DNA of 44,117 nt from Collinsella sp. AF20-14LB (lineage in GTDB: Bacteria > Actinomycetota > Coriobacteriia > Coriobacteriales > Coriobacteriaceae). Positions 12,284-40,866 of this stretch are shown piece after piece. The stretch is from NCBI RefSeq assembly GCF_003459505.1, contig NZ_QRWD01000015.1, positions 21,459 through 65,575 of the forward strand, read 5' to 3'. A program made the position numbers and the translations under genes. Under the pieces are notes generated by a model. That model did no database searches. It was not told the origin of the DNA and was given only the letters and a program-made list of their open reading frames with translations. How positions within the stretch are numbered: the first letter of the stretch is position 1; each line of letters begins with the position of its first letter.

Positions 12284-12925
12284 ATGAGTCAGATTGAGAA
12301 CAAGATGGATGGTTTCGTTCCCTTTGGGGGCAAAGCACAATACGAATATCAGGAGGATGAACTAGCAATCCCAACTAGCATCGCTGATGCGGTTATCAAC
12401 GCACTGGATGACATTATGTTTCCCATGGACGAGCAGGGGGAGAGGCCTTTGGATTGCCAGACGTATTTCGCCGTGCAGCGCACGTCCGGTGGTGAGGGAA
12501 AACAGGATTACTTTCTTCTCAGTGATGCCGAGGACATCAATGACGAACTCCCCTTCTCGCGTAATGGGGCGTCTTGGGGCGAGTGCAACGGCGAGCTCGC
12601 ATGTAAGGCTTACAGCGAGCCGCCGACCCTTCTGACGTTCCATGAGCTCACGCCCGCGGGTCTCGATCTGCTCCGCGATGAGGACGGCTTCTTCTCCGAT
12701 GTGCCTAGTGAGGCGGTGGAGAAGGTTTTCGGCGATGAGACACTCACCATGCCTTCGATGCTCACGCTTCTGGAGGTCGAGCTGAAGGTCGATGATGCCC
12801 TTGCCGAGCTCGAGGCGCAGCCTCCTGCGGGCGAATCGCTCGATGAGCTTGTCGCTGCGAAGGTCGAAGAGTTCTCGCTCGATGCGGGAGAGGATTTGGA
12901 AGAGCGTGCCGATCAAAACCGTTGA
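12284..12925 (+). CDS. Tagged accessory protein (unknown function)
   Basis: A 213-residue acidic soluble protein. I do not recognise the main domain. The C-terminus carries the shared tag, ESLDELVAAKVEEFSLDAGE, starting 30 residues from the end. The start ATG at 12284 follows AAAGGA at about 6 nt; an in-frame TTG at 12269 lies between the -10 hexamer and the ribosome site and is less likely. It is a single-gene unit behind Q-box a. Confidence 0.7.
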   Translation: MSQIENKMDGFVPFGGKAQYEYQEDELAIPTSIADAVINALDDIMFPMDEQGERPLDCQTYFAVQRTSGGEGKQDYFLLSDAEDINDELPFSRNGASWGECNGELACKAYSEPPTLLTFHELTPAGLDLLRDEDGFFSDVPSEAVEKVFGDETLTMPSMLTLLEVELKVDDALAELEAQPPAGESLDELVAAKVEEFSLDAGEDLEERADQNR

Positions 12926-12940
12926 CGAGCACGGCTTTGC

Positions 12941-12980
12941 GTGTAGCTCGGTAGGCGCATAAGGCGCTACCGAGCTACAC
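12941..12980 (+). repeat. 14-bp hairpin with GTGTAGCTCGGTAG arms
   Basis: GTGTAGCTCGGTAG (12941-12954) and CTACCGAGCTACAC (12967-12980) are perfect inverted repeats around 12 nt. No T-run follows on either strand. The same GTAGC-rich wording recurs at 33190-33228, 33391-33414 and 34799-34835. Confidence 0.75.
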
Positions 12981-12982
12981 GG

Positions 12983-13046
12983 ATGTGAAGAAGAACAAGA
13001 AGAATAAGAAGAAAAATAAAAAGAAGAAAAAGAATCAGAAGAGCTG
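12983..13046 (+). repeat. Purine-only AAG-rich tract
   Basis: About 60 bases are almost entirely A and G, built from AAGAA/AATAAG units. A similar tract lies in the 33235-33288 gap and, in coding form, at 17423-17480. An 81-codon reading frame crosses it but overlaps Q-box h and has no ribosome site. Confidence 0.6.
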
Positions 13047-13261: not shown

Positions 13262-15034
13262 ATGAACCGTGTCGGCTTAAAAGACTACCTGCTCAACCAT
13301 GCAGATGATAACGATTTGCTGGACTGCGCGAAGGCGTACGATGCCGCGAATCAGTACGGGCATTTCGATACATATGATTCCGTGGAGGAAGCCGCCAAGC
13401 TCTGCGGCTAGGACGTAGCGACTGCCCTCAGCGAGAGTCGCCACGTCGAGCAGGACGCCGACTGCTACCGCTTCAACGGATACGGTCACCTCGAGTCCGT
13501 CAGCAACGAGAGTCTGCTCGAGGATGCCCGCGACCGCATCGACGATATCATCGATTGGCTCGAAGGTGCCAGCCGATATGACCTTGAAGGTATTAGCTCC
13601 GATGTCGAGCTGTTTATCGATGCGGAGGATCCTATTGAGATAATCAACGCCGTCGATTGCTCCGTGCGCGAAGCCGAAGACACCATTGAGGTTGACTTGA
13701 GCCGCGGAAGCGACAGTGCGACGCTCTCCTTCTCCAAGTTCAACATTATCGATGCGGCTGATGTTAACCTCGCCAATGCGGCGTACGCAACGGTCAGATG
13801 TTTTGACAGGTATGCAGACGGCAGCAGTACCGATGAAGTTCAGGCGCAGTTTTTCGAGGATAACGGGCGCAGGCTGTCGGTCCCGCGTGCGAACAAGCTG
13901 ACGGAGTCCTGCGAGAAGAATATGGATGCCTTGAAGCAGGTGCTGAATGATGACGAAATCGATGCCCTCGAGCAGTTCTTCGATGTCGAGCTTTGCAGCG
14001 AAACGTATTGTGCGACACTTGCCAATGAGGCTTCGGAATGTAAATACATCGCATCGGCCCTCGATAAGATGGGCTTCGATGTGGAAAACGACCGTGCCAT
14101 CGAGAAGCATGCCGAGATCGAGCCCAAGCAGCGCATCATTTTCGATAGGATGATCGGAAGGGTCGGCGATAGCTACCTTGAGGTGGTCAATCAGCTCGAT
14201 AATTTCTTCGATACCGACCGCACCGGCCAATCTGAGTTCATCAACGACAACTGGGGAAACCCCATTCTCGTCAAGGGCGGTCGCGATGGATATGGCGATA
14301 CGCCCTGCGTACTCACCGCCTATGAGGACTTCGTTGACGCGATGGACACCTCTCCGTCCGACACCGGCGGGGACAACATCTTCGCCGACTGCAAAATCGA
14401 CGGCATCTGGGATGAAAACGGTTCGCTGATTCTGACCGGTGCGCTCCCCGATGGACACGCCACAATCTGTGAGCTCCTCGGTGCACACGCCTGCGCGGAG
14501 ATGCGCCAGCTGACCGACAAGGGCGGGCGCCTCTATTTGGATCACTTGACAGTTGACGGGTTCCATCTTCCCAAGGATGGCATCGAGGCGATGGGGTTCG
14601 TCTACCGAGATGGCGATGAGAGTGCCTTCCTGCATGACCTGTGGGACAATCCCGAGATGTGCTCCCGCCCGCGTTTTGCCGAGAAGGCACTTGATATGCC
14701 CACCGAGGAGTACATCATGTTTCACGATGGCGTGAAAACAGAGTTCCAGATTACCGAGGTCAAGGAGGATTCGTTCGCCTATGACCAAGGAGCGCGGTTC
14801 GATGTGAAGGTTCTCACCGACGGGCATGACTGCGGCAACGGACGCTTCTGCGCCGATCTCGATGAGGCGCACGGGTTCTGCCAGCAGTTTGCCGATAGTG
14901 TGGTTGGGCTTGGCGAGAGCCTTGACGATATGTGCGAGGACCGCCGCGAGGTCGCCTCTCTTGCGCAGGATGTCGATACGGACAATCGCGATCAGGAATA
15001 TAACAATCACGACAATTCGGAAATCGGAGAGTAG
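13262..15034 (+). pseudogene. Tagged accessory protein interrupted by an in-frame TAG at codon 50
   Basis: A strong ribosome site (GGAGGAAACC) and ATG at 13262 open a frame that runs for 590 codons to 15034, with a single TAG at 13409-13411 (codon 50). The segment either side of the TAG reads as one domain. FDTYDSVEEAAKLCG precedes it, and DADCYRFNGYGHLESVSNES follows, a wording common in small plasmid and phage proteins. No other stop occurs, and no start with a ribosome site is seen just downstream of the TAG. It ends with the tag GESLDDMCEDRREVA. Either this is a recent nonsense mutation or the TAG is read through. Confidence 0.65.
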
Positions 15035-15036: not shown

Positions 15037-16365
15037 ATGTATAGAGTCCATGGCTTCCAGGACAAGGACCAGCTTCTCGAGATGCTCGTCAAGGAGAACA
15101 GCATGACGTTCTTCCCTGAGTTCAACCTCCTCGTGGTCAGTTCCAGCTACGATCCGAGCGAGGAGCCGTTAAGGATTCAGACGGCCATCTTTAACGCCAA
15201 GATCTCCGATATCTCTAGCGGTGATCTGTTCAAGCGCTGTGATTACTTGTCCGACATGGTTTTCGAAGGAGGACAGTGCGAGGCAGTCGCCATCATCGAT
15301 TCCTTTGAACAGGATGCCGATGGAGGCAAGTTCTATGATTCGAGGATAGCCATGTTGGCCGACCTGTTTTCCTGGAGCCCGACCATCGATGCCGAGAGCA
15401 TTCCCGATATGATCCATGCTGCCTCGTATTATCAAAAACAAGGTATGTCCGACCGAGAGAATTTCGAGCTGTCGCATGGTAAGCCGCTGCCCGAGATGTC
15501 GAAGAGATCTCTAGGGACGGGTGTAAAGGAGCTGCTCGACAAGCTCACGGCTAGTGAGACGGTAAGCTATTTCCCCGAGTTCAATCTTCTTGTCGCGACC
15601 ACGGAGCTCGTCCCAGATGGTCTCGATGCTCCCCAGACGGCCATATTCAACGTCTTTCCGTCCGAACTCGCCTACGGGAAACTGTTCCATGGCTTCGAGA
15701 GCGTGGCCGACATCCTCTATAGCGGGCCCGTTGTCGACCCCATCCACCTAAGAAGGACCTTTCAGAACTTTGGCGGCGCGTCCGTAATCGCTGAAGGCAT
15801 CACCCACCACTTGGCCATGCTCCTGTCCGGCAGCGATGTTATCAGCACGCAATCCGTCCCAGAGCTTCTCGACATCATGGCGGACAGTTTCGGCATCGAA
15901 CCCGAGGAACGTGCCGCATTCGCCGATCGGGCACGGGCGGAGGAATGCACCCGCACGGGCCTGCCGGATATTCAAGTCGAGGTCGATAGCACCAACGACG
16001 ACAATTTCATTGAAGGAACGGTGACGATCGAGGGCGAGTCCTGCTACTTTTACCGCCCGAACAGCACCCGAAGTACGGAGGATTACGACTCGGTTATCTT
16101 GGAGCCTTTCCGCCCCGATGGGTTCGAGGGCGATATCGAGAATGTCGCGCTGCCGACTGCGATCGATGAGAACCGCGAGCTCGCCGAGCTGGTCGTGACC
16201 GTAGCGACCGAGCCGTATATGGATCCCGACAAATTGCCGGGTTGCGAGCGGGGCCTCGATTCGCTCTGCGAGGAGAAGACCGACGAGGCGCAATCGATGA
16301 GGTACGGCCTGGAGGGCGTGGGCTTGCCGATGCTCGATGCCGCGGAGCATCTCGCGAACTACTAG
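15037..16365 (+). CDS. Tagged accessory protein with an internal duplication
   Basis: A 442-residue protein. Two copies of one domain are visible, at about residues 8-150 and 165-300. Each holds a FFPEFNLLV-type motif (FFPEFNLLVVSS and YFPEFNLLVATT), then QTAIFN about 20 residues later and a G-x-LF motif. I do not recognise the family. The C-terminus carries the tag RGLDSLCEEKTDEAQ. It starts 3 bp after the interrupted gene, so it shares Q-box h. No signal peptide or membrane segment is seen. Confidence 0.7.
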   Translation: MYRVHGFQDKDQLLEMLVKENSMTFFPEFNLLVVSSSYDPSEEPLRIQTAIFNAKISDISSGDLFKRCDYLSDMVFEGGQCEAVAIIDSFEQDADGGKFYDSRIAMLADLFSWSPTIDAESIPDMIHAASYYQKQGMSDRENFELSHGKPLPEMSKRSLGTGVKELLDKLTASETVSYFPEFNLLVATTELVPDGLDAPQTAIFNVFPSELAYGKLFHGFESVADILYSGPVVDPIHLRRTFQNFGGASVIAEGITHHLAMLLSGSDVISTQSVPELLDIMADSFGIEPEERAAFADRARAEECTRTGLPDIQVEVDSTNDDNFIEGTVTIEGESCYFYRPNSTRSTEDYDSVILEPFRPDGFEGDIENVALPTAIDENRELAELVVTVATEPYMDPDKLPGCERGLDSLCEEKTDEAQSMRYGLEGVGLPMLDAAEHLANY

Positions 16366-16541: not shown

Positions 16542-18524
16542 ATGGCCTTTGTCATCAACCTGCACGGCCCGAATACCAACACGCTCGGCAATCTCACCGC
16601 AGGCGCCCTTGCGGAGATGGGCTACAGTACCGCCGCCGTACCGTCCTGCCGCCGAGAGATGGAGCTCGCTGCATTGAGCGGCAATGAGCAGGCGATCCGG
16701 CTCACGGACGGCTCCCTCGAAAGTTGTGTCGAGCTCGCGTCCATGCAGGCTGAACGTAACCGGCGCTCCATCGACCCCGATCTGGATGCGGTGATCGTCT
16801 GCGGACCTGTGGTCGATAGCTTCTGGGGCTATAAGGGCAACCGCGAGGACTCCTTCTACCGTGCCGCCATCGAGACGGCGCTTGAGCTGGATGCCGCCCA
16901 GTACGAGCTTGTCCCCAGCGGCAGCCTTACCGAGCATACCCTTGCTCAGTTCAGGTCCTTTCTCAGGGATTGCGGGGTCAGGCCGCGAATCAGCGGACAG
17001 CTCGATTACGGGTACCACGACATCATCGACATCGTCCGCGGCGAGGTTGCGCTCGACCGCAAGAAGCATCCCGTAAAGAGTGTCGAGAAGGTCGATGTCG
17101 CCCCCGATTGCGAGAAGGTCATCGCTGGCTTCAAAAATGCGACGATCAGCGTGCAGGAGGCCATCAAGTCCCTTCCCGTGGGAAGCGAGATGCGCGTAAA
17201 GCTCGAGAGTATGGTCGAACGCGCCCTGGAAGACGGTTATGGCGGCATCCATATCGAGACGGTCAGGAAACCTACGGGTAAGACGATGAGTTTGGGCGAC
17301 TTGGTTCAGTCGGAAGTCGATGCCGCATCCAGGCGCAAAGACGTCCGCGATGAGGTGGGTGCTCGCGAGGAAGAGCCCGCCGAGTCGGAGGCTGTGGAAA
17401 CCCACGGGCAGGATGAGGAAGAGGGCAAGGAGAACAAGGATAAAGAGAAGAAGAATAAAAAGGAAAAGGAGAAGGATATGGTAGACGAATCCGAGTCGAA
17501 GAAGCCCGAGTACATCAATATCAGCTTCGAGAACAAGGATGTCCGTGTGAAGCCGTATACGGATCGTAACGGCAAAGAGCGCCTGCGCATCAACATGACG
17601 ATGCCGAAGGGTACCGTTGTCGGGGATAAGGACCTTTCCGGCATGAAGGTCTCCATGCCCGCTCGCGAGTTCATGAAGCAGGACAAGGATGCCGGAAAGG
17701 CGGTCAAGTACGGTTTCCGCTCCGACCGCGAGATGCATTTCTTCAAGTACGATGAGCAGAACCAACGCATCGACTATCCCGGCGAGGGCGATGCGGCAAT
17801 CATGCCGAGTGACTTGGCCGCCGCCGTGTCGGCGGCCTATCAGGGCAAGGAAGTCACCAAGCCGGAGCCGCAGCGCAGCGCGAGCTACAAATACACGGGA
17901 CTCACCTTCGCCCCCTGCGATATGAAGGTCAAGACCGTTCCCGTTGAGGACGGCCCCGATAAGAACTTCCTGCTGTGCAAGCTGCCTCCCCACACCATGG
18001 TCGGCAATCAAGATCTCGGCGGCATGATCGTGAGCAAGTTCCTCACGGACAGACAGTTGCCCTATGCGCAGTCCGGTAAGCCCTTCACGGCGAGCTTCAA
18101 AACTGAATTGCCCGTCCGCGTCTATCCTGTCAGCGGCGAGGATTCCCGCGACAACTTCGACTATGACTACCGTAGCCCGCAGGAGTTCAGCGCGGGAGCC
18201 TTGGTCGCCGGCATTGAGGACGCCTACGATGCACGCCTGCTCAACGCCCAGGGTTACGAGGACAAACTAGCGGCGGCCGGTAAGGAAATGAATCCCGCCG
18301 CTGCCGAGGCCAAGCAGATGCTCGAGGATCGTGATGCCGCTGCATCGCGCCAGGGCAGCAAGGCCGCGGCCCTGAAATACCACCAGACGGGCGGCGGCGA
18401 GGACGCGCCGCTGAATGATCTGTGCGATGTGAAGAGCAGCGAGGCGGCCGAGGTTCAAGGCGATCAGCCTTATGTAATCACCGGACCCGAGCCCGAGCTC
18501 TACGACGAGGATGTCGAGTTCTAG
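16542..18524 (+). CDS. Tagged multidomain protein: degenerate P-loop-like N-terminus plus two DLSG domains
   Basis: A 660-residue protein. Residues 1-145 resemble an AAA_28/NadR-type kinase fold (VINLHGPNTNTLGNLTAGAL, then DAVIVCGPVVDSFWGYK), but the Walker lysine is missing, so any ATPase activity is doubtful. A Lys/Glu-rich linker (about 285-320) is encoded by a purine-only tract. Two copies of a roughly 115-residue domain follow, at about 322-436 and 449-565. They share MPKGTVVGDKDLSGM / LPPHTMVGNQDLGGM and a following K-x-Y motif. A third copy forms the protein at 36684. The tag is APLNDLCDVKSSEAAEV. It has its own Q-box. Confidence 0.7.
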   Translation: MAFVINLHGPNTNTLGNLTAGALAEMGYSTAAVPSCRREMELAALSGNEQAIRLTDGSLESCVELASMQAERNRRSIDPDLDAVIVCGPVVDSFWGYKGNREDSFYRAAIETALELDAAQYELVPSGSLTEHTLAQFRSFLRDCGVRPRISGQLDYGYHDIIDIVRGEVALDRKKHPVKSVEKVDVAPDCEKVIAGFKNATISVQEAIKSLPVGSEMRVKLESMVERALEDGYGGIHIETVRKPTGKTMSLGDLVQSEVDAASRRKDVRDEVGAREEEPAESEAVETHGQDEEEGKENKDKEKKNKKEKEKDMVDESESKKPEYINISFENKDVRVKPYTDRNGKERLRINMTMPKGTVVGDKDLSGMKVSMPAREFMKQDKDAGKAVKYGFRSDREMHFFKYDEQNQRIDYPGEGDAAIMPSDLAAAVSAAYQGKEVTKPEPQRSASYKYTGLTFAPCDMKVKTVPVEDGPDKNFLLCKLPPHTMVGNQDLGGMIVSKFLTDRQLPYAQSGKPFTASFKTELPVRVYPVSGEDSRDNFDYDYRSPQEFSAGALVAGIEDAYDARLLNAQGYEDKLAAAGKEMNPAAAEAKQMLEDRDAAASRQGSKAAALKYHQTGGGEDAPLNDLCDVKSSEAAEVQGDQPYVITGPEPELYDEDVEF

Positions 18525-18673: not shown

Positions 18674-19939
18674 ATGCGAGAAATACCCATAGACAATCTC
18701 GAAGGCCTAAAGGTGCCCGATGCGGTTCTCCTCTGCCGCCGAGGAGATTCTTGGGTAGCGGAGAAAGACGGGTCGCGGGCGGGTGACTTTGTGTCGAGCC
18801 TCGTCGGAGATTCCGAGCGGCTCTACCCCGAGCCAAACGGGCAGCTCGTTCTCTCAGATGATGGAGGCCACACTGCGTCTGCTCGAATCTCCGCCATCCC
18901 GAGCAGCCTGTTCTCCATCACGGAAAAGGTCCGCGAGCTTCGAAATATCCCATCGGAGAAAAGCTACGAGATGCTACTGGGCAAGGCAGTCGAGAGCCAT
19001 AAGCTCATCAACCTCGCCCGTCTCGCAGCCGTTGTCCCCAAGGCTGCCGCGGCGGTACCTATCCGAACCGACAGGCATATAGTCTTGGCACATGGCCCGG
19101 CACGGATGGAAGAGCTCGCCGACGACATCGGTGTGAGTTGGGCACGCGAGGCGGTCTCACGAATCGCCGACCCATCACACTTTCCGGATGTCGAAATTCC
19201 GAGCGGGCTGACCGATGAGATTCTGGACAGTGCACGCACTGCGGCGGGCGAAGACAAGGGCGCCTATGAGGATTTTTGCGCGGATCTCGGGTTTGCGTGC
19301 GACGTCATCCGCTCTGCCTTCAGTTGCGACCTCGAATCCGAAGCCGAGTTCTACGATTCGAGTGCGACCGATAACGTCCGCGTCCTGCTCGACTGTATCG
19401 ACACGTCCAAATGCATCGTCATCCTTAAGGACTCGGCTTCGGGTTTTTGCGAATACCTGTTTTCAGATACCGAGTCCTTCATCAGGGCGCAGCCGCGCAG
19501 CGTCGGCGAGTTCGCGGCCGAACTCGCCGCTGGGCGATATCGGCTCGACGACGATGCGCGGGATTTCGAGCTTGTCGTGGAGGGCGGCAAGCTCATCCTC
19601 GATGAGACACCGAGCATGGCACACGGCAACGGGAAATATGAGGTCCTCTTCATCGCCAAGTCGCTGAGCGACAGGGTGATTGCCATGGAAAATGACGAGC
19701 TCGGGCGGGAGATGGCCCGCCTGCGCATGCGCCGAGGTCTTCCTGCAGAGAACCTTGTCGTGCGCCTAGCTGAGATGAGCGGCGACGTCGCATGCGTCGA
19801 GCGGGATATCTGCGCGGTATTCGGCTGGAATTTCTCCGGGAACGGGAGGATGGAATCGCTCGATGACCTCATGGAGGCCGTCGAGCTCGATTCGGCGCAA
19901 CCCTATGGGCGCGGCGGCAGGGATAAAGCTGGATTTTAG
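18674..19939 (+). CDS. Tagged accessory protein (unknown function)
   Basis: A 421-residue soluble protein that I do not recognise. The C-terminus carries a diverged tag (MESLDDLMEAVELDSAQ). The start is uncertain. The frame is open from 18422, but codon use only becomes typical after about 18700. The Q-box c hexamer places transcription start near 18632, so ATG 18614 would be excluded. ATG 18674 has GGGAG 8 nt upstream; ATGs at 18656 and 18659 are alternatives. It is followed after 10 bp by the next tagged gene. Confidence 0.6.
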   Translation: MREIPIDNLEGLKVPDAVLLCRRGDSWVAEKDGSRAGDFVSSLVGDSERLYPEPNGQLVLSDDGGHTASARISAIPSSLFSITEKVRELRNIPSEKSYEMLLGKAVESHKLINLARLAAVVPKAAAAVPIRTDRHIVLAHGPARMEELADDIGVSWAREAVSRIADPSHFPDVEIPSGLTDEILDSARTAAGEDKGAYEDFCADLGFACDVIRSAFSCDLESEAEFYDSSATDNVRVLLDCIDTSKCIVILKDSASGFCEYLFSDTESFIRAQPRSVGEFAAELAAGRYRLDDDARDFELVVEGGKLILDETPSMAHGNGKYEVLFIAKSLSDRVIAMENDELGREMARLRMRRGLPAENLVVRLAEMSGDVACVERDICAVFGWNFSGNGRMESLDDLMEAVELDSAQPYGRGGRDKAGF

Positions 19940-19949: not shown

Positions 19950-20486
19950 ATGGATATCGATATCCAAGGCACGGAAATCAAACCCGATCCGAGGGACAAT
20001 GTCGAACTCACGAGGTTCGGCTCGACGGCGATACTGTTTTGCGGCGGTGACGAGCCGTTTATGGTCGTGAAGGGATATGACAGCAAGACCGGCGAGTGGA
20101 CGGGCGATTCCGTTCGCGTCGATGACCTGTCGGTCGCATGGGATATCGCCGACCCTGAAATCATAGAAGGCGCCACCGTCAAATGGAAGCGTTCCGATGT
20201 GGCGGGCATTCTCGAGGACAGGGGGATCGAGGCGAGTGATTGGAACATCGATATGGCCATCAAGACGCCCGATCTAGAGAACTCCCCTTTTTGGCTCGGC
20301 AAATTCTCCAAGGACGGCGGCGAGGATTACCTTAATTTGACCATCACGCAGCTCTGCTCCATCGGGGCGCTGGACGTCCCCGAGGGGTTCAGGCTCGAGG
20401 AGGGCTTGGACGATATCGCCGAGCGCATGGACGAGTGCTGCGCCGGCGATGAGATTGGCAATATGATCCAGTCTGTGGGGCGCTAG
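19950..20486 (+). CDS. Tagged accessory protein (unknown function)
   Basis: A 178-residue acidic soluble protein. I do not recognise it. The start ATG at 19950 follows AGGAGGGAAG, a strong site; in-frame upstream starts overlap the preceding gene and lack one. The C-terminus is a degenerate tag, EEGLDDIAERMDECCAGDE. It is probably expressed from Q-box c with the 18674 gene. Confidence 0.65.
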   Translation: MDIDIQGTEIKPDPRDNVELTRFGSTAILFCGGDEPFMVVKGYDSKTGEWTGDSVRVDDLSVAWDIADPEIIEGATVKWKRSDVAGILEDRGIEASDWNIDMAIKTPDLENSPFWLGKFSKDGGEDYLNLTITQLCSIGALDVPEGFRLEEGLDDIAERMDECCAGDEIGNMIQSVGR

Positions 20487-23999: not shown

Positions 24000-24010
24000 C
24001 TTGTCTAGCG

Positions 24011-24046
24011 AAAGGCCCGCGCGGGATCGCGCGGGCCTTTCTTTTG
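24011..24046 (+). terminator. Intrinsic terminator
   Basis: AAAGGCCCGCGCG (24011-24023) and CGCGCGGGCCTTT (24028-24040) pair perfectly around a 4-nt loop, followed by CTTTT. It ends the pilin-adhesin gene. Confidence 0.92.
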
Positions 24047-29494: not shown

Positions 29495-29496
29495 AC

Positions 29497-30810: not shown

Positions 30811-30812
30811 CC

Positions 30813-31742: not shown

Positions 31743-31753
31743 GAGTGGTTCAT

Positions 31754-32641
31754 ATGATCGTAGACGGAACAACTATCGGCCTTATCGGCGCGGGGTCGCT
31801 CGCGGCGGGTCTCAGCACCACGCTGGCGGTGCAGAAGAAATTCGGCATCGAGGTGCGCAACCTCAACCAGAAGACGCTCAAGCAGCGCAGCGAGGAGATG
31901 CAGGACCGCTTCAAGTTCGGCCAGCCGTTCCAGGGGTCTGCCCTCTTCGGTGCCATGTCGCGCGAGCAGGAGGAGCGCCAGCGAGATGCAATCAAACGCT
32001 CGGGCCTTAAAATCTCGGCGCTGATGTTCTGGGCCTCCAAGATCATCTGCATCGCCGTCGGCATCATGGTCGGCGTGCTTATCGGCACCAAGCTGAACGG
32101 ACTTGCGACCGTTGCGGCTGGCGGTCTGGGCGGCATGGTCGGGTATATCCTGCCCGAGCTCTACCTGCTCCAGAAGCGCCGCGAATGGCGCAATAACATC
32201 GAGCGCGAGCTGCCCAATGCGCTCGACCTCATGTCCATCTCGATGGCCGCAGGCTCAACGTTCGACGATGCCGTGCGCACGGTGGCCGAGAACTCCGAGG
32301 GAGCGCTTGCCGAGGGCTTCCGCGACGTACTGGCCAACGCCCGCTTCATGGATATCACCGATGCGCTCAAGCAGTTCGCCTCCAATGCCGGCGTGCAGCC
32401 GCTCACCATCTTCGTGGCCTCCCTTATCCAGGCACGCCAGACCGGAGCCGAGTTTGTCGAGGTGCTCGAGAATCAGGCTCAGACGGTGCGCACGTACCGC
32501 AGGCAGAAGCTGGAGGAGGAAATCAACAAGATCGGCACCAAGATGCTCATCCCGATCATCTTCCTGATCTTCCCCGCCCTGTTCGGCGTGCTTCTGTCGC
32601 CTGCGGCCATGTCGGCTATCCAGGCTATGGGCAGCCTGTAG
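31754..32641 (+). CDS. tadC: Tad pilus inner-membrane protein TadC
   Basis: A 295-residue membrane protein of the same GspF type as TadB. The soluble domain holds LPNALDLMSISMAAGSTFDD and a later QARQTGAEFVEVLENQAQ motif, and the C-terminus is a hydrophobic pair. The start ATG at 31754 follows AGGAG at 8 nt. It closes the core Tad machinery order A-B-C. Confidence 0.9.
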   Translation: MIVDGTTIGLIGAGSLAAGLSTTLAVQKKFGIEVRNLNQKTLKQRSEEMQDRFKFGQPFQGSALFGAMSREQEERQRDAIKRSGLKISALMFWASKIICIAVGIMVGVLIGTKLNGLATVAAGGLGGMVGYILPELYLLQKRREWRNNIERELPNALDLMSISMAAGSTFDDAVRTVAENSEGALAEGFRDVLANARFMDITDALKQFASNAGVQPLTIFVASLIQARQTGAEFVEVLENQAQTVRTYRRQKLEEEINKIGTKMLIPIIFLIFPALFGVLLSPAAMSAIQAMGSL

Positions 32642-33591: not shown

Positions 33592-33642
33592 ATGAATCCC
33601 CTTGATTTAGGAGATGAGCCGGATGGGTTCTCAAATCACTAA
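33592..33642 (+). CDS. Possible 16-residue leader peptide
   Basis: GAGAGAGGAA precedes an ATG at 33592 whose frame (MNPLDLGDEPDGFSNH) ends at 33642, overlapping the next start at 33623 in another frame. It could couple translation to the downstream gene. It may also be chance. Confidence 0.25.
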   Translation: MNPLDLGDEPDGFSNH

Positions 33643-34720
33643 AATCCCCTCTATCTGCGGAGACCAATACCCTGGTATCGGATACCAGGTGGATTGCGGC
33701 GAGTCGGTTCGCGTTGCGATGGCATGGCCTTCAGCTTCTGCCGGCGGCTGGCGCAGCCTCACCATGGAGGTACCGAAGAAACTCAGTCTCGAAAGTGAGT
33801 TGAACGGCGTTTCGGTGGAGACGCTCTTGAAATCCGCAGGTGAGCTATTTGAAGACAACGACCTCGATGGGTTCAGGCGGTTCGAGCAAATGATCGGGGA
33901 TAAGTTGGCCAGTACGGTCGTACGGCTATTTGCCCGCTATGCGCCTGTCGATTTGACCCATGCGGGCAACGCAGAGGCGTGTCGCGCTGAAATCGAGAAG
34001 TATCTCGGTGGGGATATCCCGGAGCTCGAAACTGGGAAAACGGAAAAAGCATCTGGAAAATTCCGAGCCGTACTTGTGCCTGTGGGCTCCGATCCCGTTG
34101 CCATTGGAATCAGCAGCGGGCAAGACATTATGAATCACGTTGGAGGTTTCTTTAACGAGGCCACGGGAAACATGCCCTGCGATAGGGGTAAGGGAATCGT
34201 GCCGTTGGATGTCTTTCCATTCAATGTCTCGATATACGTCAATGGTAGGACTATCTCTCCTAATAGGTCTCTTTCCGTTCCTCAGCCTAACTGTCAGCCT
34301 AACCGTGCCTTCTATGCAACCGAGAGCATGGAAAAAGAAGGCTGCCGTTCTTCAGTTGATGGCAAACCCGTGGTCGCCGGTCTGCCCATGTCCGTGCTTT
34401 ACGGAAATATCGTCGTCAATGGCTTCGATCCCGACCGCGCTTGTGACAGGTCTCTCACCGATGGCGAGATGATGGATGTCATGAATTACTTCCAGCGCGA
34501 AAGCCCCCGCGGCAGCGGGCGCGAGGTCGCTCTTGTTGTCCAAAACGGTCTGTATGGCGAGTTGAGGGAGTCGCTTACTCATGACTTCCCTAACGGACCG
34601 GAGGTTGTTGACGTTCGCGATAACGTCGAGTCGCTCGATGATCTCATGGAGCAGAAGGTCGAGGTAGCTGAGGGAAACGAACTTGGCGAGGACCTGGACG
34701 TATCCAACGGGGAACGCTAA
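33623..34720 (+). CDS. Tagged protein with DUF3846-like domain
   Basis: A 365-residue protein. The N-terminal 130 residues are unrecognised. The region from about residue 140 to 290 resembles DUF3846 (FRAVLVPVGSDPVAIGISSG at its start, VAGLPMSVLYGNIVVNGFD near its end), and the 39797 gene holds the same fold. The tag is VESLDDLMEQKVEVAEGNEL. ATG 33623 was chosen because AGGAG lies 9 nt upstream; ATG 33614 abuts that site. It is led by Q-box g and closed by terminator-like module D. Confidence 0.65.
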   Translation: MGSQITKIPSICGDQYPGIGYQVDCGESVRVAMAWPSASAGGWRSLTMEVPKKLSLESELNGVSVETLLKSAGELFEDNDLDGFRRFEQMIGDKLASTVVRLFARYAPVDLTHAGNAEACRAEIEKYLGGDIPELETGKTEKASGKFRAVLVPVGSDPVAIGISSGQDIMNHVGGFFNEATGNMPCDRGKGIVPLDVFPFNVSIYVNGRTISPNRSLSVPQPNCQPNRAFYATESMEKEGCRSSVDGKPVVAGLPMSVLYGNIVVNGFDPDRACDRSLTDGEMMDVMNYFQRESPRGSGREVALVVQNGLYGELRESLTHDFPNGPEVVDVRDNVESLDDLMEQKVEVAEGNELGEDLDVSNGER

Positions 34721-34949: not shown

Positions 34950-36158
34950 ATGGCCAAGAGAACCTATGGCAAATATCAAGGAAAGAGTCCGACCGAGAAG
35001 CTGACGGATGCCCGTCAGGCGCTCTTCGATGCGCTTCTCGCGGACATGGAGCGCGAGGGCTCCCGATGGGTCAAGGAGTGGTCGTTCCCACACCCGCCCA
35101 TGAACGGCGCTACAGGTGAGGGCTACGGGCCGCGAAATACCGCCATGCTCATGTACGCCATGAGGGACGGAGGCTTCAGGGACCCGCGATTCGCCACGTT
35201 CAAGATGGCATCGGATAAGGGCTGCCATATCATCAAGGGGTCGCACGGCTACCCCATCGAACGCTGGAAGCGCATGCTCGTAAGCAGGACGGACCCGACC
35301 GCCCGCCTCAAGCAGCCCAAGACCAAAGAGGAATGGGATATCGCCCTCGCAAATCCCGAATACAAGGCCGAGCCGCGCTGCGTCGGCACGTTCACGGTGT
35401 TCAATGCCGAGCAGATGGAGAACACGGAAAACCTCGTCTCCGTTGAGGGCTTCAAACCCATCGAGCCCGATCGCGTGGCCGACGGCATCGTCAAGGCATC
35501 GCCCTGCCCCGTAATCGAGACGCCGAACGCCGAGGCGTTCTACCTGCCCGGCGCAGACAAGATCTACGTCCCGCAGCGCAACCAGTTTACGAACGTGGAG
35601 TCGTTCTGCCGAACGCTGCTCCACGAGATGGGGCACGCCACGGGCCATCCGAGCAGAAACAACCGCGAGCAGTGCGGATTGAAGAAGGATCGGCAGAAGT
35701 ACGCCTTCGAGGAACTCATCGCCGAGCTCTCGAGTGTGTTCACCGCGAACGCCATCGGTCTCGATCTCCGTAACGTCGACGACGACAAACCCCTTGCCGC
35801 CAACGAGGTCGATGCCATGTCGAACTCGGCTGCCTACCTCAAGAGTTGGTCCCAGGAGTTCAAGGATCCGGGCGGCGAGCTACTGAAGGCCGCATCGCGG
35901 GCGAGCAAGGCGACCGATTACCTCGTGGAAGACTGCTTCATCCCGAAGCTCGGCAAGGACTACTTCAAGTCCCCGGAACACGCTACCGAGGCGGTAGCCG
36001 ACGTCGATATGGAACGCGACGCTGAGGCTGAGGTCGAGCAGGGAGACGATGGGTTCAGTCTCGACGAGCTGTGTGAGTCCAAATGCGATGAAGCGGACAT
36101 CGCCAACGGCACTGGGCGGAGCGATACGGCATCCGTTAATTATGAGGAAGGACGATAG
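34950..36158 (+). CDS. ArdC-like antirestriction protein with zincin domain, tagged
   Basis: A 402-residue protein. The N-terminal domain matches ArdC (DUF1738): PPMNGATGEGYGPRNTAML, a YxDPR-like stretch (GGFRDPRFATFKMA) and KGSHGYPIERWKRM. The second domain is a zincin-type metallopeptidase of the MPTase-PolyVal group, with HEMGH at residues 225-229 (LLHEMGHATGHPSRNN). ArdC-type proteins bind single-stranded DNA and protect incoming DNA from restriction; related sequence occurs in the TraC1 primase of RP4. The tag is FSLDELCESKCDEADIANGT. ATG 34950 follows GGGAG; an in-frame start at 34839 lies before the Q-box and is unlikely. Confidence 0.88.
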   Translation: MAKRTYGKYQGKSPTEKLTDARQALFDALLADMEREGSRWVKEWSFPHPPMNGATGEGYGPRNTAMLMYAMRDGGFRDPRFATFKMASDKGCHIIKGSHGYPIERWKRMLVSRTDPTARLKQPKTKEEWDIALANPEYKAEPRCVGTFTVFNAEQMENTENLVSVEGFKPIEPDRVADGIVKASPCPVIETPNAEAFYLPGADKIYVPQRNQFTNVESFCRTLLHEMGHATGHPSRNNREQCGLKKDRQKYAFEELIAELSSVFTANAIGLDLRNVDDDKPLAANEVDAMSNSAAYLKSWSQEFKDPGGELLKAASRASKATDYLVEDCFIPKLGKDYFKSPEHATEAVADVDMERDAEAEVEQGDDGFSLDELCESKCDEADIANGTGRSDTASVNYEEGR

Positions 36159-36160: not shown

Positions 36161-36598
36161 ATGCTTGAGGATCTGGAAATCAATTCGTTCGATGATCTGA
36201 AAACCGCACTAGGTGAGGCTCTGCACAATGGCGCGGCTTCACCTGAGGCGGCAGATTACCTGATGGAGCGATTCGAAGTCCTCTGCATGGATATCGACAA
36301 CGTGTTTCTCGCCATATCCGCCAATGACATCAAGGAATACTATCCGAACCTGTCGCTCGATGAAGCCCGCGAAGTGCGCGATAACGCCAACGAGAACCTA
36401 TGGAACTCGGGTGGATATGACGACATCAACGATGTGGCTTGGGGGCAAATCAAAGCCGAGGTCAAGTGCGTGCGGGATGCGCGTCATGACTCTCGTTGCG
36501 AAGAGACGAGTCTCGACGACCTTGCTGAAGCGTATGGCGATGAGGGTGCTTGCCAAGAAAGCTGCGGCTCGCGCGATACGGAGGGCATCCCGAGGTAG
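36161..36598 (+). CDS. Small tagged protein (unknown function)
   Basis: A 145-residue acidic, mainly helical protein that I do not recognise. It starts 2 bp after the ArdC-like gene and so shares Q-box d. Its C-terminus has the diverged tag ETSLDDLAEAYGDEGACQES. Confidence 0.65.
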   Translation: MLEDLEINSFDDLKTALGEALHNGAASPEAADYLMERFEVLCMDIDNVFLAISANDIKEYYPNLSLDEAREVRDNANENLWNSGGYDDINDVAWGQIKAEVKCVRDARHDSRCEETSLDDLAEAYGDEGACQESCGSRDTEGIPR

Positions 36599-36683: not shown

Positions 36684-37193
36684 ATGAGCGAGCAGAACAA
36701 CATGAACAAGGGCAAGGTCCGCATTGACTTCCCGCCGAAGTGGGTGACTGCTGAGAAGGCCAACGGTGAGCCGTATACCATCTCCAACGGCAAGGGCGAG
36801 TCTTGGCCTGCCGTCAAGTGCACCCTTCCTAGCGGCACAAAGGTCGATGGCAAGGACCTCTCCGGCTTCAGCTTCACCACGTTCCAGAAGCCGTGGAACA
36901 AGACCGATATCGAGGCCGGCAAGGGCACGGGCGTCTTCGTCAATGCCGATCGCAATGTGAGCCTCTTCAAGTACGACCAGGACGGCCAGCGCCACGATGA
37001 GTCCGTCGAGCCGCAGAAGCTCTCCGATGCCGTCGAGACCGCCCGTGCGGAGTACCGCGAGCAGCACCAGAGCCACGACCGATCCCAGGAGCAGGAGACC
37101 GGTCTCGATGAGCTTTGCGAGCAGAAGACCGCCGAGGCCAGTGAGCGCGATGGCGGCTCTCAGGATCGCAGCGCCCAGAACGTCCAGCGCTAA
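36684..37193 (+). CDS. Single DLSG-domain protein, tagged
   Basis: A 169-residue protein. Its body (about residues 8-120) is one copy of the domain found twice in the 16542 protein. Shared points are LPSGTKVDGKDLSGFSF, a K-x-V-x-V run, and SLFKYDQDGQR before a terminal helix. The tag GLDELCEQKTAEASERDG is one of the clearest copies. A strong GGAGG site precedes the ATG. It is a single-gene unit with Q-box e before and a terminator after. Confidence 0.75.
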   Translation: MSEQNNMNKGKVRIDFPPKWVTAEKANGEPYTISNGKGESWPAVKCTLPSGTKVDGKDLSGFSFTTFQKPWNKTDIEAGKGTGVFVNADRNVSLFKYDQDGQRHDESVEPQKLSDAVETARAEYREQHQSHDRSQEQETGLDELCEQKTAEASERDGGSQDRSAQNVQR

Positions 37194-37343: not shown

Positions 37344-38099
37344 ATGCCTGAGGTCAAGCCGAGTATTTCGGAGCTGTATGAGTCCGGCGGTCTGGATATG
37401 TGGCTCGTCAACAAAATTGCCCACAACGAGCTGGATAAACGTAAAGGCGATACCCGTAGCTCGGTATATGCACTCGCATCCGAAAACATCGACTGCTATA
37501 CGGATTCCAGATGCTGCGAAATAATCGAGAACTATGCTGCTGTCCTCGATTCTCAATTGACTGCCGAGGACCACGGCGGCGGCAAGATTTCTTCTGAGTT
37601 CATTCTCGGTTCTGCTATCGCTCTTGGTGCGGCATCTCAAGCTCGAGCTGATATTGAATATTTCGATCAGGAGTTCAAGTCTCGAGCCTTTATTGAGCTT
37701 TCTGATCTCGGCATGTCTGAACTGCAATCGAGCTGTCGTGATGCGGATGAATATGCGCTTGCCGGAGTCAATCCCGATATCAAGTTCCCCATCGGTTTCG
37801 TCTCCGTTCAGGATGTAGCGGATACGGTCAACGAACTCGGCTCCGAGCATATGAAAGAGACGCTCAAACCTGCCGCCCTCGAGAAGGTAGCCGTTAGTCT
37901 TGCGGAAGCAGAACAGCGCATCGAACGGGACGATCTCGCCGCGGGGATCGCATTCAACGCGGGGCTGGAGATGGGATATATCGAGGACAAACGAGGGGAA
38001 CAGGGTCTCAATGATATCTGTTCGGCGAAAAGCGAGGAAGCTGCCCTTATTTCTGACGGAAATGAGGTCGAGCGCGTAGGAATCGAAAACGAAAAATAA
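37344..38099 (+). CDS. Tagged accessory protein (unknown function)
   Basis: A 251-residue soluble, mainly helical protein that I do not recognise. The C-terminus carries the tag EQGLNDICSAKSEEAALISD. It is the first gene of the Q-box f operon. GATGGAG lies 6 nt before the ATG. Codon use from 37500 to 37720 is less GC-rich than that of its neighbours. Confidence 0.65.
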   Translation: MPEVKPSISELYESGGLDMWLVNKIAHNELDKRKGDTRSSVYALASENIDCYTDSRCCEIIENYAAVLDSQLTAEDHGGGKISSEFILGSAIALGAASQARADIEYFDQEFKSRAFIELSDLGMSELQSSCRDADEYALAGVNPDIKFPIGFVSVQDVADTVNELGSEHMKETLKPAALEKVAVSLAEAEQRIERDDLAAGIAFNAGLEMGYIEDKRGEQGLNDICSAKSEEAALISDGNEVERVGIENEK

Positions 38100-38109: not shown

Positions 38110-38604
38110 ATGAACGGTGGGTCTTGCAGCCTCTATATCGAGGGCAAGGGAAAGGTCTCCGTCAGTATCGGCGGCAGTCCGAGTATGCCCAGCATCAGTT
38201 TTACCGGACTTCACGGACACGGAGCCGTCGGCTACAACACCGCTCGCGTGTGCGAGAAGGCAGCTATCCGCTGCGCCCTGCGCAGCGCCGGCTTCGATAT
38301 CCCTAGGGCCAGCATTCGCATCGACGTCGACGAGTCTGCCCACGAGTTCGGACACATGTGCATCGAGAACGCCTGCGCCCAGGGCATCGCCATCGCGAGC
38401 GGTCAGGCGAAGATGCCCGAGGGCGGTCGCGTGGATGCCACTCCAATCATAATCGACGGGTCTACGCTTCGCCTGGAGCCGATCAAGGGCGGCAGCGAGC
38501 GCGGGCTGGATGAACTTTGCGACGAGAAGCAGGCCGAAGCGGATTTGGCCGAGGGGACGGCTGACCGCGATGGGCAGTTCGAGCATAAGGAGAGCGGACG
38601 ATGA
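38110..38604 (+). CDS. Stand-alone ChlI/ComM-type domain protein, tagged
   Basis: A 164-residue protein. Residues 8-110 resemble the N-terminal ChlI domain of ComM/YifB. SMPSISFTGLHGHGAVGYN parallels the GLPGFxIVGLPDxAVRES motif. AAIRCALRSAGFDIPRASIR parallels the RVRAALxNSGFxFPxxRI segment, and the helix ending IAIASGQ parallels ALGILAASGQ. The AAA+ part of ComM is absent. ComM is a helicase that aids branch migration in transformation, so a lone N-terminal domain could modulate the host enzyme; that is inference. The tag GLDELCDEKQAEADLAEGT is clear. AAGGAGG precedes the ATG. Confidence 0.65.
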   Translation: MNGGSCSLYIEGKGKVSVSIGGSPSMPSISFTGLHGHGAVGYNTARVCEKAAIRCALRSAGFDIPRASIRIDVDESAHEFGHMCIENACAQGIAIASGQAKMPEGGRVDATPIIIDGSTLRLEPIKGGSERGLDELCDEKQAEADLAEGTADRDGQFEHKESGR

Positions 38605-39800
38605 GCAAAATCGGAAACATCAGGGTTGACGTCGCAGCAAGCGATGCGGCCTATTACGCTTACGCCCCGCATGACAGCATTACCCTGCCGATGGCGCCTG
38701 ATGATCTGCAAAAGGTCATCGACAAGGTGACCTATTTCGGCAGGCACGACTATGCCATCGAGGATATTCGGACTTCCGGCAAGTTCGACAAGTTGCACTT
38801 CGCTGAGGACGAGCTCGTGGACCTGCGAGCACTCAACGCCATGGCGGAGTGCGTTAAGCGCAATCCCGACATTGATTACGATGCCGTCTGCGACTACTGC
38901 GATAACTTCGATGTCCCGGTCGACCCGCTCATGGTCGGCAACGTCATCATGCAGGCCGATGAGATGCCGTTTTGCGGCTATTCGGTCGCTGTCGATAGCG
39001 AGGCTTCGCTGCCCAGCGACCTGTGGCGGGCATACGGCCTCACGCTCCTCGACCAAGCCAGCGAAGAGCTCGAGTCGTGCGTGAACGACAATCGTCTCTC
39101 CCCTGCCTCGAAGGCCAGCCTCTTGAACATCGGCGAGTTGCTCGGCAATGTGCCTGCCGAGGCGCTGGGTGCCAGGATGGCGGCTGGCGGGGACGTGTGT
39201 CTCGGGCATAGCGGTTATTTCGACCGCAACTCCAATGAGGTCGACTTGATGAAATTCGATTTGGATGAACTCGAGCAGGCGGCTTTCGAGGGCGACCGCG
39301 ATTTCGCGGCCGACCGTATCGTCGTCTATGCTGAGGATCGCGAAGCTGCCGATCTGGGACTCAATATCTCCCTGCCGCTGACACTGCCGATGGATGCCGC
39401 CGAGCTCGAAGGCACCCTCAAGGACATAGCGGAAATGGAGGGGGTCGATGCTGGCGAGCTCGTCATGTGCGATTATGAACTTCACGGGCGCTTCCGTGAA
39501 TATTCCTGGCATGATTTCGGTTCGGACGATTCAATTGCCGATATGAACCGTTTCGCGCAGATTGTCGTGGACAACCCCGAGCTCAGCGTCGGGGAGCTCT
39601 TCTACTACAATGACGACCATGAGATCTATGACATCGACGCCATCATCGAGTCCGCTGAGAAGATGATTGCTTCGCAGGGGGCGCCAGATGGGGATTTGTG
39701 CCTCGATAACCTCGCTGAAGCGAAGGGCGATGAGGCGGAGATGGTCAATGAGGGTATCGGGACTATCGGCGCCGACGCTCTTGCGGGCGGTGAACGATGA
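38601..39800 (+). CDS. ArdA-like antirestriction protein with duplicated subdomain, tagged
   Basis: A 399-residue very acidic protein. Two segments resemble the ArdA fold. The first is SITLPMAPDDLQKVIDKV with YAIEDIRTS and LRALNAMAECVKRNP. The second is SLPLTLPMDAAELEGTLKDI with LVMCDYELHG and IADMNRFAQIVVDNP. This parallels the YAIHDYELP..LNRLWE pattern of Tn916 Orf18. ArdA proteins mimic DNA and block type I restriction enzymes. The duplication makes it about twice the usual 170 residues. The tag CLDNLAEAKGDEAEMV is followed by 20 residues. It overlaps the preceding gene by 4 bp. Confidence 0.7.
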   Translation: MSKIGNIRVDVAASDAAYYAYAPHDSITLPMAPDDLQKVIDKVTYFGRHDYAIEDIRTSGKFDKLHFAEDELVDLRALNAMAECVKRNPDIDYDAVCDYCDNFDVPVDPLMVGNVIMQADEMPFCGYSVAVDSEASLPSDLWRAYGLTLLDQASEELESCVNDNRLSPASKASLLNIGELLGNVPAEALGARMAAGGDVCLGHSGYFDRNSNEVDLMKFDLDELEQAAFEGDRDFAADRIVVYAEDREAADLGLNISLPLTLPMDAAELEGTLKDIAEMEGVDAGELVMCDYELHGRFREYSWHDFGSDDSIADMNRFAQIVVDNPELSVGELFYYNDDHEIYDIDAIIESAEKMIASQGAPDGDLCLDNLAEAKGDEAEMVNEGIGTIGADALAGGER

Positions 39801-40435
39801 TGGATACGATTCGCGCCGTGCTGGTTCCCGTTAATGCCGAATGCCGCGAAGTCGAGCTGCCGGTCGATGAGAATGGGAGCTGTGGCGCCGCACTCAAGGG
39901 AATTGTCGGCGAGCGGGCCGTCAATGTATCCCAAGAGCTGCCCGACAAGTCTTTGGGAGATGCGGTCTGCGTCTATGTCAATGCTGAAGGGCGGGCGGCT
40001 TGTCCTGCCAACCGTGCAATCTGGGCCACCCAGGAGATGGCGGACGAGGATCGTAAGTCCCCTTTCACCGGCCAGACCGTAGTGGCGGGCGACCCGGCCG
40101 ATGTGCTGTACGGCGATTTCGTTGTGGTGGGCTATGACCCGTATGAGGGGACGGAATGCTCCCTTTCCGATAAGGAAGTGCAGGACGTCGTTGATTTGTT
40201 CAGCGGTCGCGGCGGCCCGTACTCGGGCGTGTCGGCGCTCGGCTATATGGAATGCATGAAACCCGACCCAAAGCTCAGGGAGCAGGACGAGTGGAACAAC
40301 GAGTCCTCGCAGATCGATGAGTTCATCTGCTATAAGAAGGACGAGGCGGCACTGTACAACCAACGTCTCGAGGACGAATATTCCAACTCGTACGACGATA
40401 GCTGGCAGAACTCGTACGACGATACGGAGTGGTAG
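39797..40435 (+). CDS. DUF3846-domain protein with diverged tag
   Basis: A 212-residue protein. Residues 3-130 match DUF3846: TIRAVLVPVNAECREVELPV, PANRAIWATQE, and VLYGDFVVVGYD. The C-terminus has a weak tag (QIDEFICYKKDEAALYNQ), then a small tandem repeat of NSYDD. It overlaps the ArdA-like gene by 4 bp (ATGA). DUF3846 proteins are common in phages and conjugative elements with no settled function. Confidence 0.72.
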   Translation: MMDTIRAVLVPVNAECREVELPVDENGSCGAALKGIVGERAVNVSQELPDKSLGDAVCVYVNAEGRAACPANRAIWATQEMADEDRKSPFTGQTVVAGDPADVLYGDFVVVGYDPYEGTECSLSDKEVQDVVDLFSGRGGPYSGVSALGYMECMKPDPKLREQDEWNNESSQIDEFICYKKDEAALYNQRLEDEYSNSYDDSWQNSYDDTEW

Positions 40436-40437
40436 CC

Positions 40438-40866
40438 ATGGGTGCTGTGAGCTACGGACAGGCCGGGTACGTGGGAACCTCCATGAGCGTCCGCGCCCGG
40501 GCGGCATATGAGTCGGGCGAGATGCCGATGTCGAAGTGGACGCGCGGCGCCATCATTTCGGCCATCAAGGACTACTGCGACGATTTCGACCTTGCCTACG
40601 ATTCTAAGATCGAGTCGATGACCAGGGCGCAGCTCGCCGATAGGTATCTCGAATATAAGTCCTGGCACCATACGGGGCGGTTCGCACGCGGGACCGAGTT
40701 TTTCGGATTGGATGAGGATGCGGTCTGCGCGGCCTTCCCCGAGGTGGGACCAGATCAAGTTACCGAGCGAGATGAGATTGGAATAGACGGATTACTTGAA
40801 GCCAAAAGCGTAGAGGCGGGGCTATCGGAGGAAGTCGGGCTAGTGAGGGAGTCAGGCTGCCGGTAG
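40438..40866 (+). CDS. Tagged protein of a family common in conjugative elements
   Basis: A 142-residue protein. The opening YGQAGYVGTSMSVRARAAYE and GEMPMSKWTRGAI resemble a small-protein family that I recall from Gram-positive conjugative elements; its function is unknown. The tag is IGIDGLLEAKSVEAGLSEEV. The ATG at 40438 lies 2 bp after the preceding stop. It is the last gene of the Q-box f operon. Confidence 0.65.
   Translation: MGAVSYGQAGYVGTSMSVRARAAYESGEMPMSKWTRGAIISAIKDYCDDFDLAYDSKIESMTRAQLADRYLEYKSWHHTGRFARGTEFFGLDEDAVCAAFPEVGPDQVTERDEIGIDGLLEAKSVEAGLSEEVGLVRESGCR

Follow-up and report, generated by a model that had tools for sequence, protein, structure and literature searches.

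Type IV secretion systems (T4SS) recruit proteins through signals that vary considerably between and within systems, according to the available text of PMC11288057. Here we present a short C-terminal motif, called the tag below, on largely unrelated proteins of a conjugative element of Collinsella sp. AF20-14LB. The stretch analysed, hereafter the window, comprises 44,117 nucleotides of contig NZ_QRWD01000015.1 (positions 21,459 to 65,575) and is part of a conjugative element. The tag comes in element-specific versions that we refer to as dialects, dialect 1 in the window and dialect 2 in related elements, and is a candidate signal for the type IV coupling protein (T4CP).

The bacteria-killing effectors of Xanthomonadales are a known case of many unrelated proteins with one C-terminal module serving a T4SS; this XVIPCD is required for VirD4 interaction and secretion (PMC6536674, available text). 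A common C-terminal module on unrelated proteins is what the tag shares with it, and a sequence-only reading of the window had drawn the parallel. However, an XVIPCD as described in that text is a domain of ~120 residues with conserved motifs and a glutamine-rich end, whereas the tag has ~13 residues with 11-28 following and does not make up such a domain. It also differs in having element-specific dialects and in sitting on conjugative-element proteins, none of them a known toxin. The tag is not an XVIPCD.

Short C-terminal stretches also recruit proteins to the VirB/D4 and Dot/Icm systems, the Legionella 'E-block' being a C-terminal signal of Dot/Icm substrates. Positive charge matters in the Agrobacterium C-terminal signal, according to the title of a study cited in PMC11288057, and a terminal Arg or Lys is frequent in tagged proteins too. 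The tag differs in being a clear sequence motif on unrelated proteins, and it does not form a net positive tail of the VirB/D4 type: mean net charge is -3.0 in dialect 1, which is acidic, and +0.5 in dialect 2, and basic enrichment in the window is found at the last position only.

Conjugative T4SS can carry non-relaxase proteins. The F-plasmid T4SS moves a 'conjutome' that includes ParA, ParB, the single-strand DNA-binding protein SSB and Psi proteins such as PsiB, proposed to aid establishment (PMC8406263, PMC11288057); engagement of relaxosome and coupling protein is needed, and internal signals are described for the F relaxase (PMC8406263). The available parts of these papers name no common tag and report that nearly all tested substrates also pass two other systems, whereas the present tag looks private to an element. 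Among the polyvalent proteins (Iyer et al. 2017), ArdC-N/MPTase proteins beside T4SS genes are likewise candidate early-phase effectors, but the available text describes globular domains and mentions no shared short C-terminal tag (PMC5512222). For Gram-positive conjugation, the available parts of reviews name no protein cargo signal, and the titles and abstract openings among the matches listed in our literature search contain no shared tail in Gram-positive conjugative elements. Set against known T4SS C-terminal signals, the candidate would be new in being short, common to unrelated conjugation proteins and private to an element.

The tag in the window

The sequence-only reading had proposed that sixteen unrelated proteins of the window end in one common module. 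Scoring each tail with a leave-one-out profile built from the other 15, against 500 shuffles per protein, leaves most of this claim in place: 13 of the 16 tails are strong (matched by 0 or 1 of 500 shuffles), two are weak (18674 with 16/500 shuffles as good, 19950 with 32/500), and that of 39797 is unsupported (368/500). The best-scoring site is the hand-picked one in 16/16 proteins. The tag has the consensus [SG]-[LI]-D-[DE]-[LMI]-[CAM]-E-x-K-x-x-E-A; its 13 residues start 24-41 and end 11-28 residues ahead of the C-terminus, in agreement with the proposed distance of about 20-45 residues. With the full 16-tail profile, the best of the 23 other window proteins reaches 7.5 bits, compared with 13-30 for the 13 strong tails.

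The tag is also recovered blindly. A word-against-shuffle star search of the 41 window proteins of at least 90 amino acids (aa) returns it as the top C-terminal family with a score of 62 and 11 partners; the controls in the same 41 proteins reach 21 (N-termini) and 22 (mid-regions). This search was used instead of a zero-or-one-occurrence-per-sequence (ZOOPS) motif model with weak priors, which overfitted (C-termini 244 bits, N-termini 247). Synonymous codons of the tag vary from gene to gene, and the shared feature is therefore a protein signal, not a DNA repeat.

The genes in question lie in two blocks of mostly unknown genes, 12284-22471 and 33623-40866:

12284..12925, + strand: tagged unknown protein, 213 aa; tag SLDELVAAKVEEF at 12836-12874; ends in R; its copy in the nearest genome, G001, scores too
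13664..15034, + strand: tagged unknown open reading frame (ORF), 456 aa; tag SLDDMCEDRREVA at 14918-14956
15037..16365, + strand: tagged unknown protein, 442 aa; tag GLDSLCEEKTDEA at 16252-16290; ends in Y
16542..18524, + strand: tagged protein, 660 aa; tag PLNDLCDVKSSEA at 18408-18446; ends in F
18674..19939, + strand: weakly tagged protein, 421 aa; SLDDLMEAVELDS at 19856-19894; ends in F
19950..20486, + strand: weakly tagged protein, 178 aa; GLDDIAERMDECC at 20403-20441; ends in R
21905..22471, + strand: tagged protein, 188 aa; SLDELAEVYGNQA at 22397-22435; ends in R
33623..34720, + strand: tagged DUF3846-like protein, itself without a Pfam match, 365 aa; SLDDLMEQKVEVA at 34631-34669; ends in R
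34950..36158, + strand: tagged ArdC-type antirestriction protein, 402 aa; SLDELCESKCDEA at 36057-36095; ends in R
36161..36598, + strand: tagged protein, 145 aa; SLDDLAEAYGDEG at 36509-36547; ends in R
36684..37193, + strand: tagged protein, 169 aa; GLDELCEQKTAEA at 37101-37139; ends in R; tagged homologue in dialect-2 elements
37344..38099, + strand: tagged protein, 251 aa; GLNDICSAKSEEA at 38004-38042; ends in K
38110..38604, + strand: tagged protein, 164 aa; GLDELCDEKQAEA at 38503-38541; ends in R
38601..39800, + strand: tagged protein, 399 aa; CLDNLAEAKGDEA at 39699-39737; ends in R
39797..40435, + strand: DUF3846 protein (Pfam match), 212 aa; proposed tag QIDEFICYKKDEA at 40310-40348, unsupported; ends in W
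40438..40866, + strand: tagged protein, 142 aa; GIDGLLEAKSVEA at 40780-40818; ends in R

Most of the tagged proteins scanned have no family match, and most are unrelated as proposed; the exceptions are two pairs with homologous bodies, 33623/39797 (DUF3846-like) and 16542/36684 (part of the 16542 body). Gene 34950 is identified as ArdC by an ArdcN domain (E=4.4e-18) and an MPTase-PolyVal zinc peptidase domain (E=6.1e-26). The protein previously placed at 13262 had to be redrawn: an in-frame TAG at 13409-13411 leaves no open frame from 13262 to 15034, and the tagged part is the ORF called from 13664. The G001 copy of the 13262 frame is open at the corresponding place.

Homologues of the ArdC protein allow conservation of the tag to be separated from that of its surroundings. 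The 120 homologues listed, out of 706, include 64 at >=70 % identity, of which 54 were aligned and 10, mostly fragments, dropped. Mean identity to the window protein in the 54 reaches 0.90 for the body and 0.86 for the 13-residue tag, as against 0.39 for the linker and 0.42 for the residues that follow the tag; the motif is present in 54/54, including P0058 and P0059 with ~65 extra residues before it. Seven of the 10 dropped sequences end in the tag and three (P0057, P0061, P0062) do not show it; the tag thus stands at the end of 61/64, the other 3 being fragment-like by eye. AlphaFold models ArdC well except mainly for residues 343-402 (predicted local distance difference test, pLDDT, under 50), where a short low-confidence helix (372-378) falls inside the tag (370-382). 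A conserved tag between variable flanks, in a tail modelled as disordered, is the look of a short linear motif.

The model of 36684 is of low confidence (pLDDT 53) and has no helix in the tag; its fold has no structural match at E<=0.001, and a sequence search of the PDB finds no relative (best E 0.19). Among database proteins, P0125-P0131 and P0134 resemble, by eye, joins of 36684 to 38110 or 37344 at or near the tag; tag DNA may have served as a crossover site, or these may be assembly chimeras.

Dialect 2 and the coupling protein

A profile search of relatives found the window dialect in one genome only, G001, which has a T4CP. In its 2.5 Mb the 13-tail profile has 15 matches at E<=10, 13 on contig C2, 2 on C16 and none elsewhere. 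A scan of the genus (43 genomes) gives matches at E<=0.01 in G001 only, and among 148 relatives the dialect-1 profile matches 4 genomes at E<=0.05, 3 of these with a single weak match each. Elsewhere in G001, beyond the copy of the window, the 13-tail profile picks up a 491-aa protein encoded directly upstream of a T4CP gene (E=0.021; the T4CP itself matches T4SS-DNA_transf at E=1.7e-47) and a 411-aa protein (E=0.17). With these two included, a second dialect-1 profile also reaches one protein of 110 aa and another of 174 aa, the latter with a sub-threshold DUF3850 match; a 257-aa and a 275-aa protein of G001 resemble the tagged ones by eye, yet score under 11 bits.

Comparison with T4SS presence was hence made on dialect 2. 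A T4CP of the same family is present in 76 of 396 genomes of the class of G001, taken as Coriobacteriia. Regions of up to 20 kb around T4CPs among the matches listed (60 regions) and ArdC/T4CP neighbourhoods gave 79 sets, 71 with a called T4CP. Dialect 2 was first noticed by eye in three genes per element and tested by profile afterwards; a blind star search of 19 sets of ArdC or T4CP neighbourhoods, 3 of them too small, showed no clear C-terminal family. A scan of genome contigs with ArdC returned, among the matches listed, mostly Proteobacteria and no near relatives.

The dialect-2 motif, L-x-x-[RK]-A-x-x-A-[RK]-x-[AG]-[SA], lies 14-30 residues from the protein end. Its carriers are the gene directly upstream of the T4CP and a homologue of 36684 located 8-9 kb away; in an alignment of 17 members of the 36684 family, the window copy has dialect 1 where the others have dialect 2. 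Counted at >=13 bits within the last 70 residues, dialect 2 is found on 62/69 genes upstream of the T4CP, 53/53 36684-like proteins and 7/9 ArdC proteins, counts that are not independent of the profile, which was trained on tails of these three groups. It is absent from the secretion machine, namely T4CP (0/71), VirB4 (0/69), VirB6 (0/58), lysozyme (0/59), VirB8 (0/47) and VirB3 (0/59), and also from adhesin (0/60) and relaxase (0/29). Independent of the training are 36 further tagged proteins out of 746 (21 distinct ends) and, as controls, 319 proteins taken from 20 stretches of chromosome. Of the 36, 33 are encoded immediately upstream of the T4CP-upstream gene; the other 3 are ArdC or 36684-like proteins from sets in which no T4CP was assigned. 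Of the chromosomal proteins, 0/319 reach 13 bits on either dialect and one reaches 10 bits on dialect 1. Of the profile positions scoring >=13 bits, 158/163 fall within the last 70 residues. Per-region counts contain near-identical elements, and the distinct C-termini of the tagged proteins number 104; the core is identical to a profile row in 63/157 tagged proteins, and 59/84 distinct cores are not identical to any.

Upstream genes under 13 bits are those of L174, L181 (masked), L182 (10.5), L193, G349, G405b and G002, and ArdC is under 13 bits in G349 and G002. G349 has another tail, alike on ArdC (SLSDEARDAQDAADA) and on the upstream gene (VDLERECRDMQDAAEE), and G094 a further pair of tails alike by eye (VSLREEGKNMRAAS, RLHTEGERCRKAS). 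Identification of the upstream-of-T4CP protein as PcfB/DUF3801 is not supported, with no PF12687 match in 4 proteins scanned and an hhalign probability of 0.2 % for 13 proteins against a DUF3801 protein; homology of the G001 upstream-of-T4CP protein to its dialect-2 counterpart is likewise unsupported.

Across the 396 genomes, a profile of 25 dialect-2 tags finds the dialect in 60 genomes at E<=0.003, and 60/60 are T4CP-positive; 0/320 T4CP-negative genomes match. At E 0.005, 2 T4CP-negative genomes match, and at E 0.05 there are 27 (two of them matching twice) against ~16/320 expected by chance. When the 32 genomes that supplied profile sequences are removed, 28 tag-positive genomes remain, all T4CP-positive, with no T4CP-negative match; several of the 28 carry tags identical to profile rows, which leaves the 0/320 unaffected. 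The tag is a conserved C-terminal element on unrelated proteins of T4SS-bearing genomes, found only together with a T4SS/T4CP: for dialect 2 by co-occurrence at E<=0.003 and for dialect 1 in its one genome. The proposed tie between a sorting or docking tag and the T4SS has passed the refuting check put forward with it, as run on dialect 2. Proteins of the secretion machine lack the tag.

The dialects are private to their elements. No cross-match reaches 10 bits, with 0/157 dialect-2 proteins matching dialect 1 and 0/13 dialect-1 window proteins matching dialect 2. Both element types occur in G001, with dialect 1 only on C2/C16 and dialect 2 only on C47/C27, and dialect 2 is common to hosts of four families (f1, f2, f5, f7). 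Two non-overlapping dialects in one host and one dialect across four families fit an element-encoded reader and not a host-encoded one.

A second feature, absent from the earlier reading, is the last residue. It is Arg or Lys in 11/16 of the listed window proteins, and Arg/Lys make up only 5 % of the preceding 15 residues. Proteins end in Arg/Lys in 49/51 upstream genes and 27/36 36684-like proteins versus 53/317 chromosomal controls; among distinct C-termini of dialect-2 regions the figures are 85/104 for tagged and 197/843 for untagged proteins. The codons of the terminal residue differ. All 22 distinct C-termini of relaxases (proteins >=300 aa) end in Arg; they derive from 29 hits, of which 3 under 300 aa were dropped (two ending in R, one in P) and identical ends collapsed. 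Since the relaxase is known to be transferred by conjugation, an end feature common to it and the tagged proteins is suggestive. Counts of Arg/Lys ends in further families are 8/42 for VirB3, 4/33 for VirB8, 5/48 for adhesin and 0/29 for VirB6.

Readings of the tag

We favour, with a probability of about 0.6, the reading that the tail is a short C-terminal motif by which non-machine proteins dock on the T4CP of their own element and travel to the recipient in mating, a prediction made from sequence. The coupling protein, or a partner of it, would be the receptor; binding would lead to translocation into the recipient cell, where the tagged set, ArdC among others, would help the incoming DNA to survive and establish. 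With separate dialects, coexisting elements would not mix their cargo; relaxases would have to rely on a different signal, for instance of the internal kind described for F. ArdC is compatible with recipient-acting cargo, as it acts on incoming DNA in recipients (PMC7213743, available text). If the reading is true, the tag predicts the protein set delivered by a conjugative element, explains the separation of cargo between coexisting elements, and turns many unknown ORFs beside ArdC into candidate recipient-conditioning proteins. More tentative, and somewhat short of even odds, is a wider proposal of a two-part private barcode in Gram-positive conjugative elements. In it an element-specific motif read by the T4CP would combine with a terminal Arg/Lys shared with relaxases, coexisting elements would have non-overlapping barcodes, and each would ship only its own recipient-conditioning kit (ArdC plus a dozen or more unknowns), readable from sequence.

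Several observations weigh against transfer by the tag. R388 ArdC needed expression in the recipient, and its export from the donor was not needed, in the available text of PMC7213743. Relaxases, a known substrate, lack the motif (0/29), so it cannot be the sole signal. No dialect-2 match at E<=0.003 is found in 16/76 T4CP-positive genomes, and by eye the window dialect is missing from the 56 listed ArdC homologues of <=45 % identity. Within dialect 2, tag pairs from the same element are no more alike than permuted pairs (p=0.25); an agreement of K/R at position 4 in such pairs (4 K/K, 0 R/K) was chosen after the fact and is discarded. The terminal Arg/Lys is not exclusive, occurring in lysozyme (19/37), VirB4 (17/49) and T4CP (19/57); 5/16 window proteins lack it, and the relaxase on C2 of G001, a putative member of this element, ends in His.

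In a rival reading, the tag docks the proteins on a different cytosolic partner encoded by the element, which might be a scaffold of the relaxosome, of replication or of partition; the proteins would stay in the donor, with no export. Element specificity, absence from channel proteins, relaxases without the motif and the lack of a family match for most tagged proteins scanned all fit. We nevertheless consider it unlikely, given that the gene directly upstream of the T4CP codes for a tagged protein in G001 and in 62/69 dialect-2 regions, that ArdC acts on incoming DNA in recipients (PMC7213743, available text), and that the terminal Arg/Lys is common to relaxases. A short motif in a disordered-modelled tail, as at ArdC 343-402, would also suit a degron or a chaperone/adaptor signal, read by the host and setting the lifetime of early-acting element proteins. 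A host reader predicts one code per host, however, and both the two non-overlapping dialects of G001 and the spread of dialect 2 over four host families speak against it, as does the lack of the tag, at 13 bits, on the 319 chromosomal proteins; this is improbable.

The amphipathic character of dialect-1 tags (mean helical moment 0.293 in 19 tags versus 0.224 in shuffles, of which 1/500 reaches the observed value) would fit a homotypic helix bundling the tagged proteins into a local scaffold. Dialect-2 tags, however, are not amphipathic (24 tags; observed value reached by 475/500 shuffles), and AlphaFold gives only the short low-confidence helix in the ArdC tag and none in that of 36684, itself a low-confidence model, making such a scaffold very improbable. 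Hardly credible, finally, is a view of the tails as recent recombination-spread copies of one DNA segment, devoid of protein-level function. The hybrid proteins, seen by eye, in which 36684 is fused with another tagged gene in or beside the tag would fit it, but residues are kept while codons differ, nucleotide identity of the tags is by eye not above that expected from shared amino acids, 54 ArdC homologues preserve the motif although its flanks vary, and a 36684 homologue elsewhere has a different motif at the same place.

Layout of the element and further tails

Other genes of the element are located as follows:

26..2725, + strand: VirB4/HerA-like T4SS ATPase without the tag; DUF87 match just over the cut-off
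2834..5830, + strand: cell-wall hydrolase of the T4SS cluster (Phage_lysozyme2) without the tag
6745..7935, + strand: VirB6/TrbL channel protein without the tag
8290-10389: topoisomerase
22905..32641, + strand: Tad/Flp pilus-type cluster, flanked by the two blocks of tagged genes

The 5' end of the VirB4/HerA-like gene probably lies outside the window, because the G001 copy starts 34 codons earlier. The Tad/Flp-type cluster holds Flp pilin-like genes, of which one has a DUF6273 domain, together with RcpC/CpaB, a T2SSE-type ATPase and adjoining genes of TadB/C-like appearance, and Pfam confirmed only some of all these; the tag was not found in the 11 proteins scored within it. A large ORF at 41691-44117, 809 aa so far, continues past the end of the window. 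The copy of the window in G001 is near-collinear and split over two contigs, C16 corresponding to 1-13034 at 94 % identity and C2 to most of 13.6-44.1 kb at 77-96 %. Three large tandem ORFs on C2 (28725-35942) have a common end, and two are also alike at the start.

The database relative P0121 of gene 36684 is from Collinsella aerofaciens, and on this ground the class searched was taken as Coriobacteriia. The 36684-like proteins of L195, L196 and L203, and the 275-aa gene on C16 of G001, end in DIPF/EIPF, which resembles the tip of single-strand DNA-binding proteins; an SSB relative of the 36684 family was not found in the PDB and fold searches.

In Bacillota, star searches of loci L229, L230, L070 and L123 gave no coherent shared tail. 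In L230 (1-30411, a Monoglobus record), 10 of 22 plus-strand ORFs end in Arg by eye, among them relaxase, PcfB, DUF3846 and TOPRIM proteins, and VirD4/VirB4 do not. For L054 the whole-locus star search is not above its N-terminal control (13.4 vs 16.3), and one pair stands out (z 7.6). At L054:9947-12816, in a Lachnospiraceae metagenome-assembled genome, an ArdC and its neighbour, a MuF_C (PBECR) protein, have a different tail in common, SITEKLAEKKSELG / SICDKLAEKHSELG, with only these two matches in that genome. In phages, the MuF_C domain has been proposed to be injected (PMC5512222, available text), and this pair is a hint of such a tail in another phylum.

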